Positions 530-34,257 of a DNA stretch of 34,692 bases are shown here, one piece after another. The DNA comes from a virus, in IMG/VR virus record IMGVR_UViG_3300021197_000674, positions 1-34,692 of that record, one strand, 5' to 3'. The notes under the pieces were generated by a model that saw only the letters and a list, made by a program, of their open reading frames with translations, was not told where the DNA came from and made no database searches. Position 1 is the stretch's first letter. Each line of letters starts with the position of its first letter. A program made the translations under genes and the position numbers.

Positions 530-623
530 AGCGTTTTTACGCTATTTTCTTTGTATCCTTAATATATATATAAGGCTTATTTAGAATGATTTTAAACTAG
601 CGTTTTTTCGCTATTTTGTTTGT
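530..623 (+). repeat. Two copies of a 25-bp hairpin-bearing repeat (530-554 and 599-623)
   Basis: Both copies read AGCG, five or six T with or without a final A, then CGCTATTTT, one variable base, TTTGT. They differ at only two of 25 positions. Each can fold AGCG with CGCT around a 6-base loop, and each ends with a TTTG; in the second copy that TTTG is the -33 element of promoter P1. They may be operators or short RNA hairpins. Confidence 0.7.
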
Positions 624-649
624 CAGGTGGAAAAATTAACCTACATTTG
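619..649 (+). promoter_or_regulatory. Promoter P1 (Bacteroidota type) for the 678-2362 operon
   Basis: TTTG at 619-622, a 19-base spacer and TACATTTG at 642-649 match the Bacteroidota consensus TTTG-N19-TAnnTTTG. The -33 element extends into TTTGTCAGGTGGAAAA, an element shared in variant form with P3 and P4. The predicted transcript starts about 25 bases before the ATG at 678. Confidence 0.8.
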
Positions 650-2660: not shown

Positions 2661-2674
2661 TTTTCCACCTGACA
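2661..2674 (-). promoter_or_regulatory. Inverted copy of the P1 upstream element (operator candidate)
   Basis: TTTTCCACCTGACA is the exact reverse complement of TGTCAGGTGGAAAA at 621-634, a perfect 14-base match. It ends 6 bases before the -33 TTTG of P2. No matching -7 element lies downstream on the minus strand, so a bound regulator is more likely than a minus-strand promoter. Confidence 0.6.
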
Positions 2675-2680
2675 GATAGA

Positions 2681-3001: not shown

Positions 3002-3165
3002 ATACATCTCCAAGTGTCATTTTGTCACATATATATATAATAGTATATATACTATAACTAAGGGTTTATATATATTATACATACAGTATACAAGTATACA
3101 GTATACATACACTAGTATATATAGTATGTATAGATACTTTATGTATATATACAGTATGTATAGAT
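3002..3165 (+). repeat. TA-rich low-complexity spacer with 14-bp direct repeats
   Basis: The stretch is made of TATA, GTATAC and AGTATGTATAGATA units. AGTATGTATAGATA occurs at 3123-3136 and again at 3153-3166, 30 bases apart, the second copy ending on the first base of the next start codon. Self-complementary TATA runs could fold weakly. Open frames through this stretch give Tyr/Ile-rich low-complexity peptides and are not genes. Confidence 0.6.
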
Positions 3166-3924
3166 ATGTCAATAAACCAGTTGGAGATACTCTTCAGTAC
3201 ACAAACCTTAAAACCAGTTAATATATCGATGGAAGAAATGAAGTTAATTATACCAGACAGTCTAGAAGAGATTACCTTAGGGCAGTATCAATTTTATTTG
3301 GGCGCCATAGAAGGTAAAGATGAGGTGACTGATGCGGAGTTTATCAATAAGAAGCTTATAGAGGCGTTTTGCGGGATAGAATACGACCTAGTGGATAAGA
3401 TACCTTACCGAGACATAGAAAAGCTCTTAGGAGTGCTTAAAATGGCTTTTGAGAAGGATTACGACCTTATACGTCACTTCAAATTACTAGATGTTGATAT
3501 GGGATTCATTCCTAAACTAGATGATATGTCTTTAGGTGAGTATATAGATACAGAGAATTACTTTGGTAATTGGGAGGATATGCACAAAGCTATGGCTGTA
3601 CTGTATCGCCCAGTGAACTTTAGGAAGGGTGATAAATACACTATAGCTCCATACGAGCCTAGTGACGAGATAAACGAGTTAATGAAGGAAATGCCACTTA
3701 GTGTAGTTATGAGTTGTACGCTTTTTTTTTACAATTTAGGGATCGAACTATCAGCGACTACCCTGAGCTTTATGGAGAAAACACTTCAGAGGCAGGATAT
3801 AACGTCACAAGTGAGGACGGCTTTGGAAAAAAGTGGGGATGGTATCAAAGTATCTATGCGCTTGCTCAAGGAGATGTCAGGAGATTTGATGAAATTACGT
3901 CACTCTCCCTCCACCAATGCCTAA
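3166..3924 (+). CDS. Tail assembly chaperone, short (gpG-like) form
   Basis: A 252-aa helical protein just upstream of the tail genes. It begins MSINQLEILFSTQ; an in-frame ATG at 3229 (MEEMKLIIPDSLEEITLGQY) is an alternative start. Its N-terminal region (SLEEITLGQYQFYLGAIEG) resembles the chaperone N-domain seen in Bacteroidota siphophages. The zero frame continues past a T9 run at 3722-3730 and ends at 3924, while a second frame overlaps it to 3995. By analogy with lambda gpG, this form would bind the tape measure protein during tail assembly and be absent from the virion. Confidence 0.75.
   Translation: MSINQLEILFSTQTLKPVNISMEEMKLIIPDSLEEITLGQYQFYLGAIEGKDEVTDAEFINKKLIEAFCGIEYDLVDKIPYRDIEKLLGVLKMAFEKDYDLIRHFKLLDVDMGFIPKLDDMSLGEYIDTENYFGNWEDMHKAMAVLYRPVNFRKGDKYTIAPYEPSDEINELMKEMPLSVVMSCTLFFYNLGIELSATTLSFMEKTLQRQDITSQVRTALEKSGDGIKVSMRLLKEMSGDLMKLRHSPSTNA
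3723..3729 (+). promoter_or_regulatory. Slippery heptamer T TTT TTT for -1 frameshifting
   Basis: In the chaperone frame the codons are CTT TTT TTT TAC (3721-3732), so T TTT TTT at 3723-3729 fits the X XXY YYZ slippery rule. A one-base backward slip continues with TTA CAA TTT in the frame that stays open to 3995. The downstream -1 stop overlaps the next start (ATGA at 3992). Confidence 0.75.
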
Positions 3925-23890: not shown

Positions 23891-23898
23891 TATATTTG
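23891..23898 (+). promoter_or_regulatory. Isolated -7-like element TATATTTG (cassette A)
   Basis: TATATTTGTAG at 23891-23901 also occurs at 33499-33509. A TTTG at the correct distance upstream is lacking, so if it is a promoter it would need an activator or a different sigma factor. A terminator follows about 40 bases later. Confidence 0.35.
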
Positions 23899-23938
23899 TA
23901 GTGTTTAATAACAAATCCTTTGTTTGTTCTCCTTTTAG

Positions 23939-23971
23939 AAAGAGTCGGTTTAGTTACTGGCTCTTTTTTTT
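23939..23971 (+). terminator. Intrinsic terminator between the late and replication regions
   Basis: AAAGAGTC (23939-23946) pairs with GGCTCTTT (23959-23966), extended inward by GGT with ACT, and is followed by a T run to 23971. Confidence 0.85.
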
Positions 23972-23979
23972 GTATACTA

Positions 23980-24011
23980 TTTGGCAGTTGGAAAACTTTA
24001 GTATATATTTG
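23980..24011 (+). promoter_or_regulatory. Promoter P3 for the replication operon, giving a leaderless message
   Basis: TTTG at 23980-23983, a 20-base spacer and TATATTTG at 24004-24011 match the Bacteroidota consensus. The upstream element is TTTGGCAGTTGGAAAA, close to those at P1 and P4. The ERF gene begins 4 bases after the -7 element, at the expected transcription start. Confidence 0.8.
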
Positions 24012-24015
24012 CCTT

Positions 24016-24585
24016 ATGAAGTTACAAGAGAAACTGGTGAACATTCAGGGGAGTCTGAAAGCACCAAAGAATCAAAGGAACAATTTCGGTAAGTATAACT
24101 ACCGTAGTTGTGAGGACATTTTAGAGGCCGTAAAGCCTCTACTACTCAAAGCTAAGTTAAACCTAACTATTAGTGATGAGGTATTATCTGTAGGTAACCT
24201 AACCTATGTGGAAGCAACAGCTACAGTATCTGATGGCGAGAACAGCGTGCTAGTTAAGGCGCAGGCAGGTATTGATCCTAACCGTAAAGGAATGGACATA
24301 GCTCAGTCGTTTGGAAGTAGCAGTTCTTACGCTCGTAAGTATGCTCTAAACGGTTTATTCCTAATTGATGACACTAAGGATGCTGATGCTACAAATACTC
24401 ACGGTAAATCAAACGCAAATGCGTCTAATACGACTACTAACACACCTGCTAGTCTACCTAGCTTAGTAGCGAATACAGAAGCCTTCAATAGAGTCAAGAA
24501 AGCTCTACAGGAGGGATTCAGTATGAATGAAGTAAAGACTCGGTACAAAGTAAGTGCTGCAGTAGAGAAACTATTAACTAACTAA
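24016..24585 (+). CDS. erf: ERF-family single-strand annealing protein (189 aa)
   Basis: The start at 24016 (MKLQEKLVNIQGSLKAPKNQ) is chosen because it lies just after promoter P3; an upstream open frame from 23920 runs through the terminator. ERF hallmarks are present: NNFGKYNYRSCEDILEAVKP at 22-41 and MDIAQSFGSSSSYARKYALN at 93-112, followed by LFLIDDTKDAD. A Thr/Asn-rich linker (about 127-150) precedes a small C-terminal helical domain. It anneals ssDNA in phage recombination and probably works with the RecE-like nuclease at 29663. Confidence 0.85.
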   Translation: MKLQEKLVNIQGSLKAPKNQRNNFGKYNYRSCEDILEAVKPLLLKAKLNLTISDEVLSVGNLTYVEATATVSDGENSVLVKAQAGIDPNRKGMDIAQSFGSSSSYARKYALNGLFLIDDTKDADATNTHGKSNANASNTTTNTPASLPSLVANTEAFNRVKKALQEGFSMNEVKTRYKVSAAVEKLLTN

Positions 24586-27400: not shown

Positions 27401-27568
27401 ATGATAGTTAAGCTATTTCCTATTTACGGAATAACTTTCGGAGTTAATTACTGGGATACGCATATGCTTCCTGATGATGATCCGCATCCAGAAGACCTTT
27501 CTCCTGAGTATTTAATACAAGTATTCGTAGGAATATTTGGAATATCTTTTCATTGGTGGAGCGATTAA
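27401..27568 (+). CDS. Small conserved-type protein of Bacteroidota phages (55 aa)
   Basis: The product starts MIVKLFPIYGITFGVNYWDT, is acidic in the middle (PDDDPHPEDLSPE) and ends in a hydrophobic aromatic segment (VFVGIFGISFHWWSD). The FPIYGITFGVNY start is familiar from small proteins in this position in flavophages. The hydrophobic C-terminal segment could bind a membrane. It overlaps the next gene by 13 bases. Confidence 0.6.
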   Translation: MIVKLFPIYGITFGVNYWDTHMLPDDDPHPEDLSPEYLIQVFVGIFGISFHWWSD

Positions 27569-28086
27569 TTGATAGGTTAGGTGCAAAGCATCCAGAGTGG
27601 GTACATATGGCTATGTCGTTTGGGTGCAACTTCGAAGAGGCTAATGAGATCGTACAGTCAATGTATGTTAGATTAGTTAAGTATATTGATGACCCTGACA
27701 GAATTATGTATAACGAAAAGGAACTTAATAGTTTTTACGTTTATGTAACGCTAAGGAATCTGTACTTATCTAAGGTTCATAAATGGAAGGTGGACTCTGA
27801 TGTTAACGAAGGAACTGTAAGTGCTGATAATAATATACACCTATATGAAGAAGAAGATATGTATGAGAATCTAGTGGGTGGTATAGAGGAAATGGTGAAT
27901 AGTTGGTACTGGTATGATAAGAAGATGTGGGAAATACATTTTAAGAAGCAGCTTAGTATGAGGGCCATATCATCTGTGACTAGGATAAGTTTAAGCTCTA
28001 TATTCGGTACGCTTAAGAACGGAAAGAATAAAGTTAGGGCTGCGTTTGAAAAAGAGTGGAAAGAGTATTTAGAAACTAGAAAATAA
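27556..28086 (+). CDS. Sigma-70-like RNA polymerase factor candidate (176 aa)
   Basis: It probably starts at GTG 27556 (VERLIDRLGAKHPEWVHMAM); a TTG at 27553 is also in frame. The segment FEEANEIVQSMYVRLVKYID resembles sigma region 2, and MRAISSVTRISLSSIFGTLK near the C-terminus resembles the region 4 helix-turn-helix. Aromatic residues in SFYVYVTLRNLYLSKVHKWK fit the region 2 core. Such ECF-like proteins recur in Bacteroidota phages. It could redirect host polymerase to phage promoters; the isolated TATATTTG elements are candidate targets, by inference only. Confidence 0.6.
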   Translation: MERLIDRLGAKHPEWVHMAMSFGCNFEEANEIVQSMYVRLVKYIDDPDRIMYNEKELNSFYVYVTLRNLYLSKVHKWKVDSDVNEGTVSADNNIHLYEEEDMYENLVGGIEEMVNSWYWYDKKMWEIHFKKQLSMRAISSVTRISLSSIFGTLKNGKNKVRAAFEKEWKEYLETRK

Positions 28087-31683: not shown

Positions 31684-32185
31684 TTATAACGAGAAGTTAG
31701 CTATAGAAAAAGGATATAAAGTTACTAATGATGGTATTCTTCTAAACGCTAAGAATAAGGCTATAGGCAGCTTAGATAGTTCTGGATATCAAAGAGTAAC
31801 ACTTAAGTTTAATGGAAAAAGACCAGTAATATATACTCATAGGCTTCAGGCTTACCAAAAGTATGGGGAAGCTGTATATTCTAAGGGTATAGTAGTTCGT
31901 CATTTAGATGGCGATAAGAGAAACAATTCTATAGATAATATAGCGATAGGCACTAACAGGGATAATGTTATGGACAGACCTGCTGAAGAAAGAATTCGTC
32001 ACGCCAATAAAGCCACAAAGAAAACTATAAAATACAACAGAGATGAGGTTGTTGATTTTCACAATAATAACGGCAAGGTCAGTAAATTAACTATGGAACA
32101 TTTTAATATATCTTCTTCAGGAACTTTACATTACATACTAAACAAAAGAAAGTTTAATGACAAATTCGATTCAGCTTCATCCTAA
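31655..32185 (+). CDS. HNH endonuclease, homing-type (176 aa)
   Basis: The motifs GYQRVTLKFNGKRPVIYTHR and VVRHLDGDKRNNSIDNIAIG with GTNRDNV (about 80-105) are the HNH core (H62 region, H83, N91, N101). The C-terminal part (VVDFHNNNGKVSKLTMEHFN) looks like a helix-turn-helix of the DNA-recognition type found in free-standing homing endonucleases. It lies between the two terminase genes, overlapping the large subunit by 29 bases. It could be a mobile homing gene or, as in some phages, part of packaging. Confidence 0.75.
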   Translation: MNTHNKIKYSYNEKLAIEKGYKVTNDGILLNAKNKAIGSLDSSGYQRVTLKFNGKRPVIYTHRLQAYQKYGEAVYSKGIVVRHLDGDKRNNSIDNIAIGTNRDNVMDRPAEERIRHANKATKKTIKYNRDEVVDFHNNNGKVSKLTMEHFNISSSGTLHYILNKRKFNDKFDSASS

Positions 32186-33371
32186 ATATCAATCCCTTTT
32201 TAACAGCGATAGTAGATACTTTGTAATTACAGGTGGGAGGGGTTCTGGTAAGTCATATGCAGCAACCCTTTTTCTTAATCTACTAACATATGAAGAAGGT
32301 AACGGTATATTATTTACTCGGTATACTATGAGTTCTGCTTCTATGTCTATTATCCCTGAATTTAATGATAAGATTGAGATGATGGGCGCACAGGATAGCT
32401 TCACCGTCACAAAGAATGACATAAAGAATAAGCACACCGAAAGCTTTATATACTTCTCAGGTATTAAGACAGCCTCTGGAGATCAGACCGCCAAACTAAA
32501 ATCTATTAGTGGTATCAATACTTTTGTATTGGACGAGGCTGAAGAGCTTCTGGACGAGGAGAGCTTCGATAAGATTGACTATTCCATACGAGCTAAGGGA
32601 GTCAGGAACCGAGTGCTGTTAATCCTAAACCCAACTACAAAGGAGCATTGGATATACCAAAGGTTCTTTCAGAATAGAGGTATTCCAGATGGTTTCAACG
32701 GTACACAGGACAACGTAACCTACATACATACAGATTACAGGGATAACATCGAGAATCTATCGGAGTCGTTTGTGAAGCAGGTAGAGGATATGAAGATACG
32801 CAGGCCAGATAAATATAAGCACCAGATACTAGGAGGATGGCTACAGAAAGCAGAAGGCGTTGTGTTTGATGACTGGCAGATGGGTAGGTTTAACGAAGAG
32901 ATGCAGCTTACTTGCTATGGCCTAGACATTGGATTTAGCAGGGATGAGAGCGTACTTACTAAGGTTTCTATAGATAAGCAAAGAAAGATTATTTGGGTGA
33001 AGGAGATGTTCTATAAGAAGGGCCTAGTGACCTCTAATATATATGAGTTGTGTAACCGCCACGCTGGGAAGCAACTGATCGTATGCGACAGCTCAGAGCC
33101 TAGACTTATTGCGGAGCTTAATTCTAGAGGCCTTAATGTAACGCCAACAGTAAAGAAGAAAGGATCAATCCTAGCAGGGATAGCTCTTATGCAGGACTAT
33201 AATATAAACCTAGATGGCGAAAACCTAGTCAAAGAATTTAACAACTATGTATGGGATATTAGAGGCGTAAAGCCTAGAGATGCTTATAATCACGGTGTTG
33301 ATTCAATGAGATACGCTATTGAGTATCTGTTACTTAGAACGAATCCAAAGGGGATGTATGTAATAAGGTGA
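32157..33371 (+). CDS. terL: Terminase large subunit (Terminase_3 type, 404 aa)
   Basis: Walker A GGRGSGKS at 26-33, Walker B FVLDEAEE at 123-130 and LLILNPTTKEHW (coupling motif) mark the packaging ATPase. The nuclease half shows GLDIGFSRDES (D257), LIVCDSSEP (D311) and HGVDSMRYA (D382), the three metal-binding acidic residues of the RNase H-like nuclease. The length of 404 aa is normal for PBSX/Terminase_3-type proteins. It cuts and pumps DNA into the prohead through the portal. Two terminators follow. Confidence 0.9.
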   Translation: MTNSIQLHPKYQSLFNSDSRYFVITGGRGSGKSYAATLFLNLLTYEEGNGILFTRYTMSSASMSIIPEFNDKIEMMGAQDSFTVTKNDIKNKHTESFIYFSGIKTASGDQTAKLKSISGINTFVLDEAEELLDEESFDKIDYSIRAKGVRNRVLLILNPTTKEHWIYQRFFQNRGIPDGFNGTQDNVTYIHTDYRDNIENLSESFVKQVEDMKIRRPDKYKHQILGGWLQKAEGVVFDDWQMGRFNEEMQLTCYGLDIGFSRDESVLTKVSIDKQRKIIWVKEMFYKKGLVTSNIYELCNRHAGKQLIVCDSSEPRLIAELNSRGLNVTPTVKKKGSILAGIALMQDYNINLDGENLVKEFNNYVWDIRGVKPRDAYNHGVDSMRYAIEYLLLRTNPKGMYVIR

Positions 33372-33446
33372 TAAAAATTTTGGTATATTCATATATTATA
33401 TATATATTTGAATTGTTATTGTTTCATATAATTGTTAATTATAAAT

Positions 33447-33481
33447 ACCTCCAGTTTCTAAACCTTTCTGGGGGTTTTTTT
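33447..33481 (+). terminator. Intrinsic terminator after the large terminase gene
   Basis: ACCTCCAG (33447-33454) pairs with CTGGGGGT (33468-33475) with one G-T pair, loop of 13 bases, followed by seven T. Confidence 0.8.
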
Positions 33482-33498
33482 ATTTCAATTATTTTATT

Positions 33499-33506
33499 TA
33501 TATTTG
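33499..33506 (+). promoter_or_regulatory. Isolated -7-like element TATATTTG (cassette B)
   Basis: TATATTTGTAG is identical to the element at 23891-23901. Upstream at the -33 distance only TTTT is present. If active it would produce a transcript of about 80 bases ending at the 33561-33593 terminator. Confidence 0.35.
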
Positions 33507-33560
33507 TAGGGTATTTGTCGAACAATACGAATCCTTACGTCAGTCGTTAAACTGAGAAGA

Positions 33561-33593
33561 AGTCCTCTAGGTAGTCACTAGGGGATTTTTTTT
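33561..33593 (+). terminator. Second intrinsic terminator after the terminase gene
   Basis: TCCTCTAG (33563-33570) pairs with CTAGGGGA (33578-33585) with one G-T pair, loop GTAGTCA, followed by eight T. Confidence 0.85.
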
Positions 33594-33601
33594 ATATTTT
33601 A

Positions 33602-33632
33602 TTTGGCAGTTGCAAAAAAAGTACTATCTTGC
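33602..33632 (+). promoter_or_regulatory. Promoter P4 for the right-end small-gene operon
   Basis: TTTG at 33602-33605, a 19-base spacer and TATCTTGC (33625-33632), an imperfect TAnnTTTG. The upstream element TTTGGCAGTTGCAAAA is nearly identical to that of P3, and 13 bases (TATTTGGCAGTTG) are identical at both sites. The leader ends AAAAGGAAACATT before the ATG. Confidence 0.65.
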
Positions 33633-33661
33633 GCATAGTTAAACACTAAAAAGGAAACATT

Positions 33662-33820
33662 ATGAGAAACGAACTAAAAACTATCTGTACAATTCTAGTG
33701 AATTTGCCAGAGTATGAGCGTAAACAAATTATGTCAGTATTATTGGCTTCTATGCTTAATGACATTTCAGCTGATGAGGCTAGCAAAACTTACGATGAAA
33801 TAATATCTAAGCTAAACTAA
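33662..33820 (+). CDS. Small helical protein, paralogue of the protein at 2189-2362 (52 aa)
   Basis: The product MRNELKTICTILVNLPEYER continues KQIMSVLLASMLNDIS and ADEASKTYDEIISKLN. It aligns without gaps to the 57-aa protein at 2189 over its core. This is the first gene after promoter P4 and has a good leader (AAAAGGAAACATT). The protein is helical and probably self-associating; the role is unknown. The next gene starts after a single base. Confidence 0.65.
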   Translation: MRNELKTICTILVNLPEYERKQIMSVLLASMLNDISADEASKTYDEIISKLN

Positions 33821-33981: not shown

Positions 33982-34257
33982 ATGGAGAAAATTATATTTG
34001 AAATTATCGACAGCCTAGTATCGACAGGCAAAATCTTTTCAGCTAACTTTACAAAGGCTGATGGAAGTGAACGTACGATGTCCTGCCGAGTAGGCGTACA
34101 GAAAGACCTAAAGGGCGTAGGACTGCAATACGATAGGCGTAAGGCCCACAACCTAGTTGTATGGGATATGAACGCCAATGGTTATAGAACGATCAAAACA
34201 GACCGTTTAAACTGGATACAGATAGAAGGAGATAAATACAATTTTGATAACATATAA
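33982..34257 (+). CDS. SH3-like beta-barrel protein candidate (DUF2693-like, 91 aa)
   Basis: The pattern GKIFSANFTKADGSERTMSC, then KAHNLVVWDMNANGYRTIKT and DRLNWIQIEGDKY resembles small SH3-like barrel proteins (DUF2693 type) common in Bacteroidota phages and plasmids, which follow the rule F-x-K-x-DG-x-x-R and end with a strand giving the final V/I-x-I. The function is unknown, probably protein or nucleic-acid binding. It is tightly packed in the P4 operon. Confidence 0.55.
   Translation: MEKIIFEIIDSLVSTGKIFSANFTKADGSERTMSCRVGVQKDLKGVGLQYDRRKAHNLVVWDMNANGYRTIKTDRLNWIQIEGDKYNFDNI

Follow-up and report, generated by a model that had tools for sequence, protein, structure and literature searches.

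A conserved cassette with two predicted promoters at the operon junctions of a clade of marine Bacteroidetes phages

Known systems and layout of the phage genome

In phage lambda, the pR'-tR'/Q unit consists of a promoter, a short untranslated RNA and an intrinsic terminator placed before the operon. The same order is found at the operon junctions of the phage genome analysed here, a 34,692-base IMG/VR virus record (the window, meaning this whole stretch), where a first predicted promoter (P1), a U-rich leader and an intrinsic terminator are followed by a second predicted promoter (P2); block A designates the copy before erf and block B the copy behind terL (Table 1). The cassette resembles in this order the antitermination units of lambda Q and Xp10 P7 (PMC6624301), from which it differs in the second promoter behind the terminator and in that neither an antiterminator nor a loading site was identified in the window. 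The regulons of the phage sigma factors of phiEco32 and 7-11 (PMC4331800) combine an encoded sigma factor with a few strongly conserved phage-specific motifs before operons, as the window phage apparently does, but in the latter the -7 box is host-like, an inverted copy of the core is present and an anti-sigma factor is not known. Finally, intergenic small RNAs of Bacteroides such as GibS (PMC7366714) have their own start, an intrinsic terminator and a largely unstructured 5' part, features also predicted for the short RNAs of the cassette, whereas these are phage-borne, located at operon junctions and poorly conserved in sequence.

With respect to host promoters, the primary sigma factor of Bacteroidetes uses a -33 TTTG and a -7 TAnnTTTG box, as described for Flavobacterium johnsoniae (PMC6847099), with six near-invariant positions in its -7 box (T-12, A-11, T-8, T-7, T-6 and G-5), and for F. 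psychrophilum (PMC9723704), whose SM1-3 motifs are of the same -7 box type as TATATTTG and whose SM5 motif is TAnnTTGY. Both boxes of P1B and P2A match this type with N20 spacing, and P1A matches it at the -7 box. In contrast, P2 carries after TTTG a 12-base extension that is absent from the sampled genomes of the host phylum, and the -7 box of P2B is mostly TAnnTTGY.

The TerL of the window (32157-33371) is 52% identical to that of P12024L, a phage of the marine flavobacterium Nonlabens, and the window phage is evidently an uncultured relative of P12024L. Its genes, nearly all on the plus strand, form two operons, one for replication (Erf, primase-helicase, exonuclease and TerL) and another with small genes and the structural and lysis genes. 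In a circular reading the second operon would run from 33662 across the contig ends to 23711; an end repeat was looked for in the window and not found. Near the start of this operon, a small WYL_2/SH3-barrel protein (33982-34257) has homologues in several relatives.

Table 1. Predicted features of the cassette and associated genes in the window
Feature	Position	Strand	Details
P2C	619-649	+	third same-sense copy of P2, TTTGTCAGGTGGAAAA and -7 box TACATTTG; preceded by a small hairpin that ends in a T-rich tail
Inverted P2 core	2661-2676	-	TCTGTCAGGTGGAAAA, upstream of the structural genes; a plus-strand -7 box adjoins it (2677-2684)
P1A	23891-23898	+	-7 box TATATTTG upstream of terminator A; predicted start 23903, by the rule of G at -5 (PMC6847099)
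Predicted short untranslated RNA A	23903-23971	+	about 69 nt, U-rich TTTGTTT leader
Intrinsic terminator A	23937-23971	+	terminator call and fold
P2A	23980-24011	+	TTTGGCAGTTGGAAAA (23980-23995) and -7 box TATATTTG (24004-24011); predicted start 24016
Erf-like ssDNA annealing protein	24016-24585	+	PHROG 155, E 2e-44; first gene of the replication operon
ECF-like sigma factor, candidate P2 reader	27553-28086	+	weak PHROG sigma hits, E 0.002-0.02
P1B	33379-33410	+	-33 TTTG (33379-33382), N20, -7 box TATATTTG (33403-33410); predicted start 33415 (G at -5); kept in terL-side relatives
Predicted short RNA B	33415-33482	+	about 68 nt; ends at terminator B1 (stem 33447-33475)
Extra promoter-RNA-terminator unit	33499-33593	+	-7 box TATATTTG (33499-33506), predicted start 33511, RNA of about 83 nt with hairpin, terminator B2 (33555-33593)
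P2B	33602-33632	+	TTTGGCAGTTGCAAAA (33602-33617) and -7 box TATCTTGC (33625-33632), TAnnTTGY type; predicted start near 33637
Small gene	33662-33820	+	52 aa, no assigned function; first in the second operon

Order and conservation of the cassette

A first-pass annotation had proposed that both operons carry copies of one regulatory block, and its elements were all found where it had placed them: TATATTTGTAG is exact at 23891-23901 and 33499-33509, TATTTGGCAGTTG is exact at 23978-23990 and 33600-33612, terminators lie at 23937-23971 and 33555-33593, and the distances of 89 (23891 to 23980) and 103 (33499 to 33602) bases are right. The repetition of these words is not a matter of chance, the mean in shuffled windows being 0.07 per window for exact TATATTTGTAG and 0 for TATTTGGCAGTTG. 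When both blocks were compared, a 32-base stretch comprising the T-run and the promoter was 88% identical.

Conservation of the block order in related phages, which the annotation itself had named as a check, was assayed in relatives fetched by TerL (80) and Erf (80). Similar sequences were removed, which left 32 loci on the terL side and 19 on the erf side for comparison with 300 dinucleotide shuffles; counts were restricted to loci with a detectable terminator (the more distant Erf loci often have none), and the shuffles overstate significance as the loci are related. The order P1, U-rich leader, terminator and P2 recurred behind terL and before erf, in support of this part of the proposal. 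On the terL side, a -7-like box was present upstream of the terminator in 28 loci vs. 6.6 in shuffles, exact TATATTTG in 12 (vs. 0.7), a perfect TTTG/TAnnTTTG pair in nine (vs. 0.2), TTTGTTT within the leader in 17 (vs. 4.5) and TTTG.CA..TG downstream in 14 (vs. 0.1). The erf side gave 18 loci with TAnnTTTG (vs. 3.2), 13 with TATATTTG (vs. 0.4), 12 with TTTGTTT (vs. 1.8) and 18 with the P2 pair (vs. 1.6). Block A was present in all complete relatives with an erf match, and in genomes with an extra gene after terL the cassette sits behind that gene and therefore marks the operon junction. Altogether, about 150 related loci were compared, and both operon junctions carry the cassette.

Regarding P1, the TAnnTTTG box is exact in P1A, P1B and P2A, whereas P2B has TATCTTGC at this position. 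A -33 TTTG is found about 18-21 nt upstream in P1B (N20), P2A (N20) and P2B (N19), but not in P1A, where no TTTG lies 17-22 nt upstream and the -33 half is weak. The annotation had taken TATATTTG as a possible phage-directed site, which was not borne out, as TATATTTGTAG/TATATTTG corresponds by its sequence to the ordinary -7 box (TAnnTTTG) of the host primary sigma factor (PMC6847099, PMC9723704); it is excluded as a phage-specific element for this reason.

A further revision concerns the second block. The copy of TATATTTGTAG at 33499 is a real element, but comparison of relatives ruled it out as the counterpart of that at 23891, since the conserved first promoter, and the partner of P1A, is P1B (33379-33410), which starts directly 3' of the TerL stop and has its own terminator B1 (33447-33481). 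The 33499 copy belongs to the extra unit, for which an 84% identical module was found in contig L017 and in no other; the promoter-terminator unit is also doubled in L075 and L076.

These data bear on a plain operon boundary, in which the terminator would end one operon, P2 would start the next and P1 would be either a leftover host promoter or AT-rich sequence present by chance. AT-rich DNA contains many TAnnTTTG words (57 in the window vs. 39 expected), which agrees with such a boundary, as does the missing -33 box of P1A; but in most loci, terL-side and erf-side alike, P1 is kept at distances that vary little, much more often than in the shuffles, making this reading rather unlikely.

The second promoter and its candidate reader

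P2 is composed of TTTGKCAGTTGSAAAA, a gap of about 8-9 nt and a -7 box. The predicted start of P2A is the first base of the ATG of Erf, and the replication mRNA is therefore expected to be leaderless. A spacing of 4-5 nt between -7 box and ATG was found in 13 of 13 exact erf-side P2 matches; among the mapped mRNAs of F. psychrophilum just 5.5% are leaderless (PMC9723704). The -7 boxes of P2A and P2B are of different classes, and therefore the single common switch that the first-pass annotation had suggested for both operons is doubtful. Among exact P2 matches, obtained with a pattern that accepts both -7 types equally and in loci that are related, an SM5-type -7 box was found in 25 of 38 on the terL side vs. 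none of 13 on the erf side (Fisher P 3e-5). The P2 of the replication operon is of sigma-A type and that of the structural operon mostly of the TAnnTTGY (SM5) type.

The exact P2 pattern was absent from all 247 Bacteroidota genomes searched, a sample of the host phylum, and a host origin of the element was discarded on this result. Among viral sequences it gave 86 hits in 83 stretches: 38 are placed behind terL, 13 precede erf, 29 occupy other positions in clade contigs and six fall in contigs without a clade gene, so that clade contigs hold 80 of the 86. These sequence matches point to the -33 region of P2, and not TATATTTG, as the phage-specific element; because P2 carries this clade-specific element, it is also the P2 element that both operons would have in common and that a phage factor most likely reads. 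A recent duplication of block A into block B need not be invoked, as the shared 13-mer is the clade consensus and other genomes also contain P2 copies that differ from one another. P12024L, the nearest annotated isolate, could not be used as an annotated example of the cassette, given that no P2 match within three mismatches was found in it and a single promoter was seen at the one candidate junction inspected.

Both P2C and the inverted core at 2661 have counterparts in relatives. The orientation of the latter fits an operator, bound by some other DNA-binding protein, better than it fits a plain sigma -33 box.

Other repeated sequences were observed in these regions. Four direct repeats TGTGAATYYAATA(C/G)CC, spaced 17-21 bases, lie at 406-480, upstream of P2C; such repeats are present in 10 of 10 clade genomes (two to nine copies, almost all on the coding strand) and absent from P12024L, and some relatives have them next to P1A or P1B, suggesting an operator or iteron array. 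Two near-identical small hairpins, AGCGTTTTTWCGCT, each followed by ATTTTSTTTGT, occupy 530-553 and 598-621, the second directly before P2C. The region 2390-2690, kept in seven relatives, consists of a terminator and about 200 noncoding bases with the conserved words ACTCTG and CTACACA and, close ahead of the structural genes, the inverted P2 core; a packaging site, a noncoding RNA and an operator are candidates for it. Ahead of the gene at 3166, an AT-rich and partly palindromic array of tandem TATAC-type repeats covers 3025-3165.

As a candidate reader of P2, the putative sigma factor at 27553-28086, encoded between P2A and P2B, has homologues in 10 of 10 clade genomes and at 44 viral loci, and gp35 of P12024L, at a comparable position, is annotated with sigma-70 region 2. 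Its structural model is helical and two-domain (pLDDT 71, pTM 0.43). ECF sigma factors were its top PDB matches (best E 9e-4), with a whole-chain TM of only about 0.3 because the domain arrangement of the model is uncertain. Clade genomes G005 and G007 have the sigma gene without a close P2 match. This protein may read P2.

Short RNAs and transcription of the operons

The predicted RNAs have a median length of 75 nt on the terL side (quartiles 68-82) and of 79 nt on the erf side (73-86), and each short RNA unit has a promoter and an intrinsic terminator of its own. The RNA A region is 93-99% identical in the three closest relatives, while the sequence upstream diverges. Between lineages the leaders vary in sequence except for TTTGTTT, and according to single-sequence folding they are U-rich and mostly unstructured, their good fold z-scores being owed mainly to the terminators. 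Inspection and folding of single sequences revealed no conserved seed or structure in the leaders, and an Rfam search for known RNA families gave only chance matches, elsewhere than in the cassette.

Antitermination, one of the switches that the annotation had suggested, would have P1 active early and the polymerase stopping at the terminator; a phage protein that loads close to P1 or onto the U-rich leader would later let it continue into the operon, as for lambda Q or N and Xp10 P7. The tightly spaced promoter, short untranslated leader and intrinsic terminator before both operons and the TTTGTTT-rich leaders on both sides are in its favour. However, no shared leader hairpin or structured loading site of the nut or put kind was seen by the same inspection and folding, which a qut-type DNA site could escape; no antiterminator gene was recognised among the scanned window proteins, many of which have no family; boxA-like GTTCTTTGACATA was found in only one of 301 loci; and each operon already has its own P2. 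Antitermination was on these grounds considered unlikely. The sole locus with GTTCTTTGACATA is L247:8640-8691, where it immediately follows a P2 copy; this word resembles the boxA of Bacteroidetes rRNA leaders.

If the P1 units were instead genes for trans-acting small RNAs, their U-rich single-stranded stretch would be expected to base-pair with translation starts that are rich in A. Their own promoter and terminator, their tight length and the conservation of the extra unit in L017 agree with this, as does a pairing of leaders with the downstream translation start slightly better than that of shuffled leaders (2 of 100 shuffles as good). Against it, leader sequences differ between lineages, pairing with the own operon was no better than with the operons of other loci (permutation P 0.75), and for two of the three window leaders, shuffled versions paired at least as well with window starts; trans-acting RNAs are thus a rather improbable reading. 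The missing own-locus excess also ruled out P1 RNA as an antisense to the start of its own operon. A role as replication primers or origin transcripts, to which a promoter with a short terminated AT-rich transcript and the iteron-like repeats TGTGAATTYAATA adjoining P1A or P1B in some relatives could be fitted, is very improbable, since the repeats of the window lie at 407-475, away from P1, and no GC skew turn occurs at the cassettes.

The explanation that we favour, with a probability slightly above even, is a cassette of two promoters by which the marine Bacteroidetes phages of this clade separate and start their operons. P1, of the host primary-sigma type, would start a short, mostly unstructured, U-rich untranslated RNA ending at the intrinsic terminator that also closes the preceding operon; downstream, P2 would drive the operon. 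The core of P2 is compatible with the host, and its extended -33 element, TTTGKCAGTTGSAAAA, is specific to the clade and most likely read by a phage factor (an ECF-like sigma or another DNA-binding protein). The analysis shows the sequence, order, conservation and clade restriction of the cassette; promoter activity, termination and the phage factor are deduced here from the DNA. For the short RNA, a constitutive terminated transcript with read-through at most limited or conditional ranks first, and antitermination and a trans-acting RNA come next. A more specific version, in which a phage factor (an ECF-like sigma or an activator) reads the 16-base extended -33 element at operon starts and the RNA of about 75 nt, U-rich and terminated, has a dedicated regulatory role or serves as an antitermination leader, is possible but improbable.

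In the literature searched, no account was found of the transcription programme of these marine Bacteroidetes phages, nor of the P1-terminator-P2 arrangement, an absence that is weak evidence; the parts of the cassette are of known kinds, and what appears new is that they are used in pairs together with a clade-specific P2 element. The more specific version, if true, would represent a transcription programme not yet described for viruses of Bacteroidetes. The cassette offers start and stop sites that are defined and testable. Its P2 element is specific to a phage clade, and a candidate reader is encoded by the phage itself. The cassette further predicts that the replication mRNA has no leader and that short terminated RNAs form a family, and its promoter parts may serve in Flavobacteriia.
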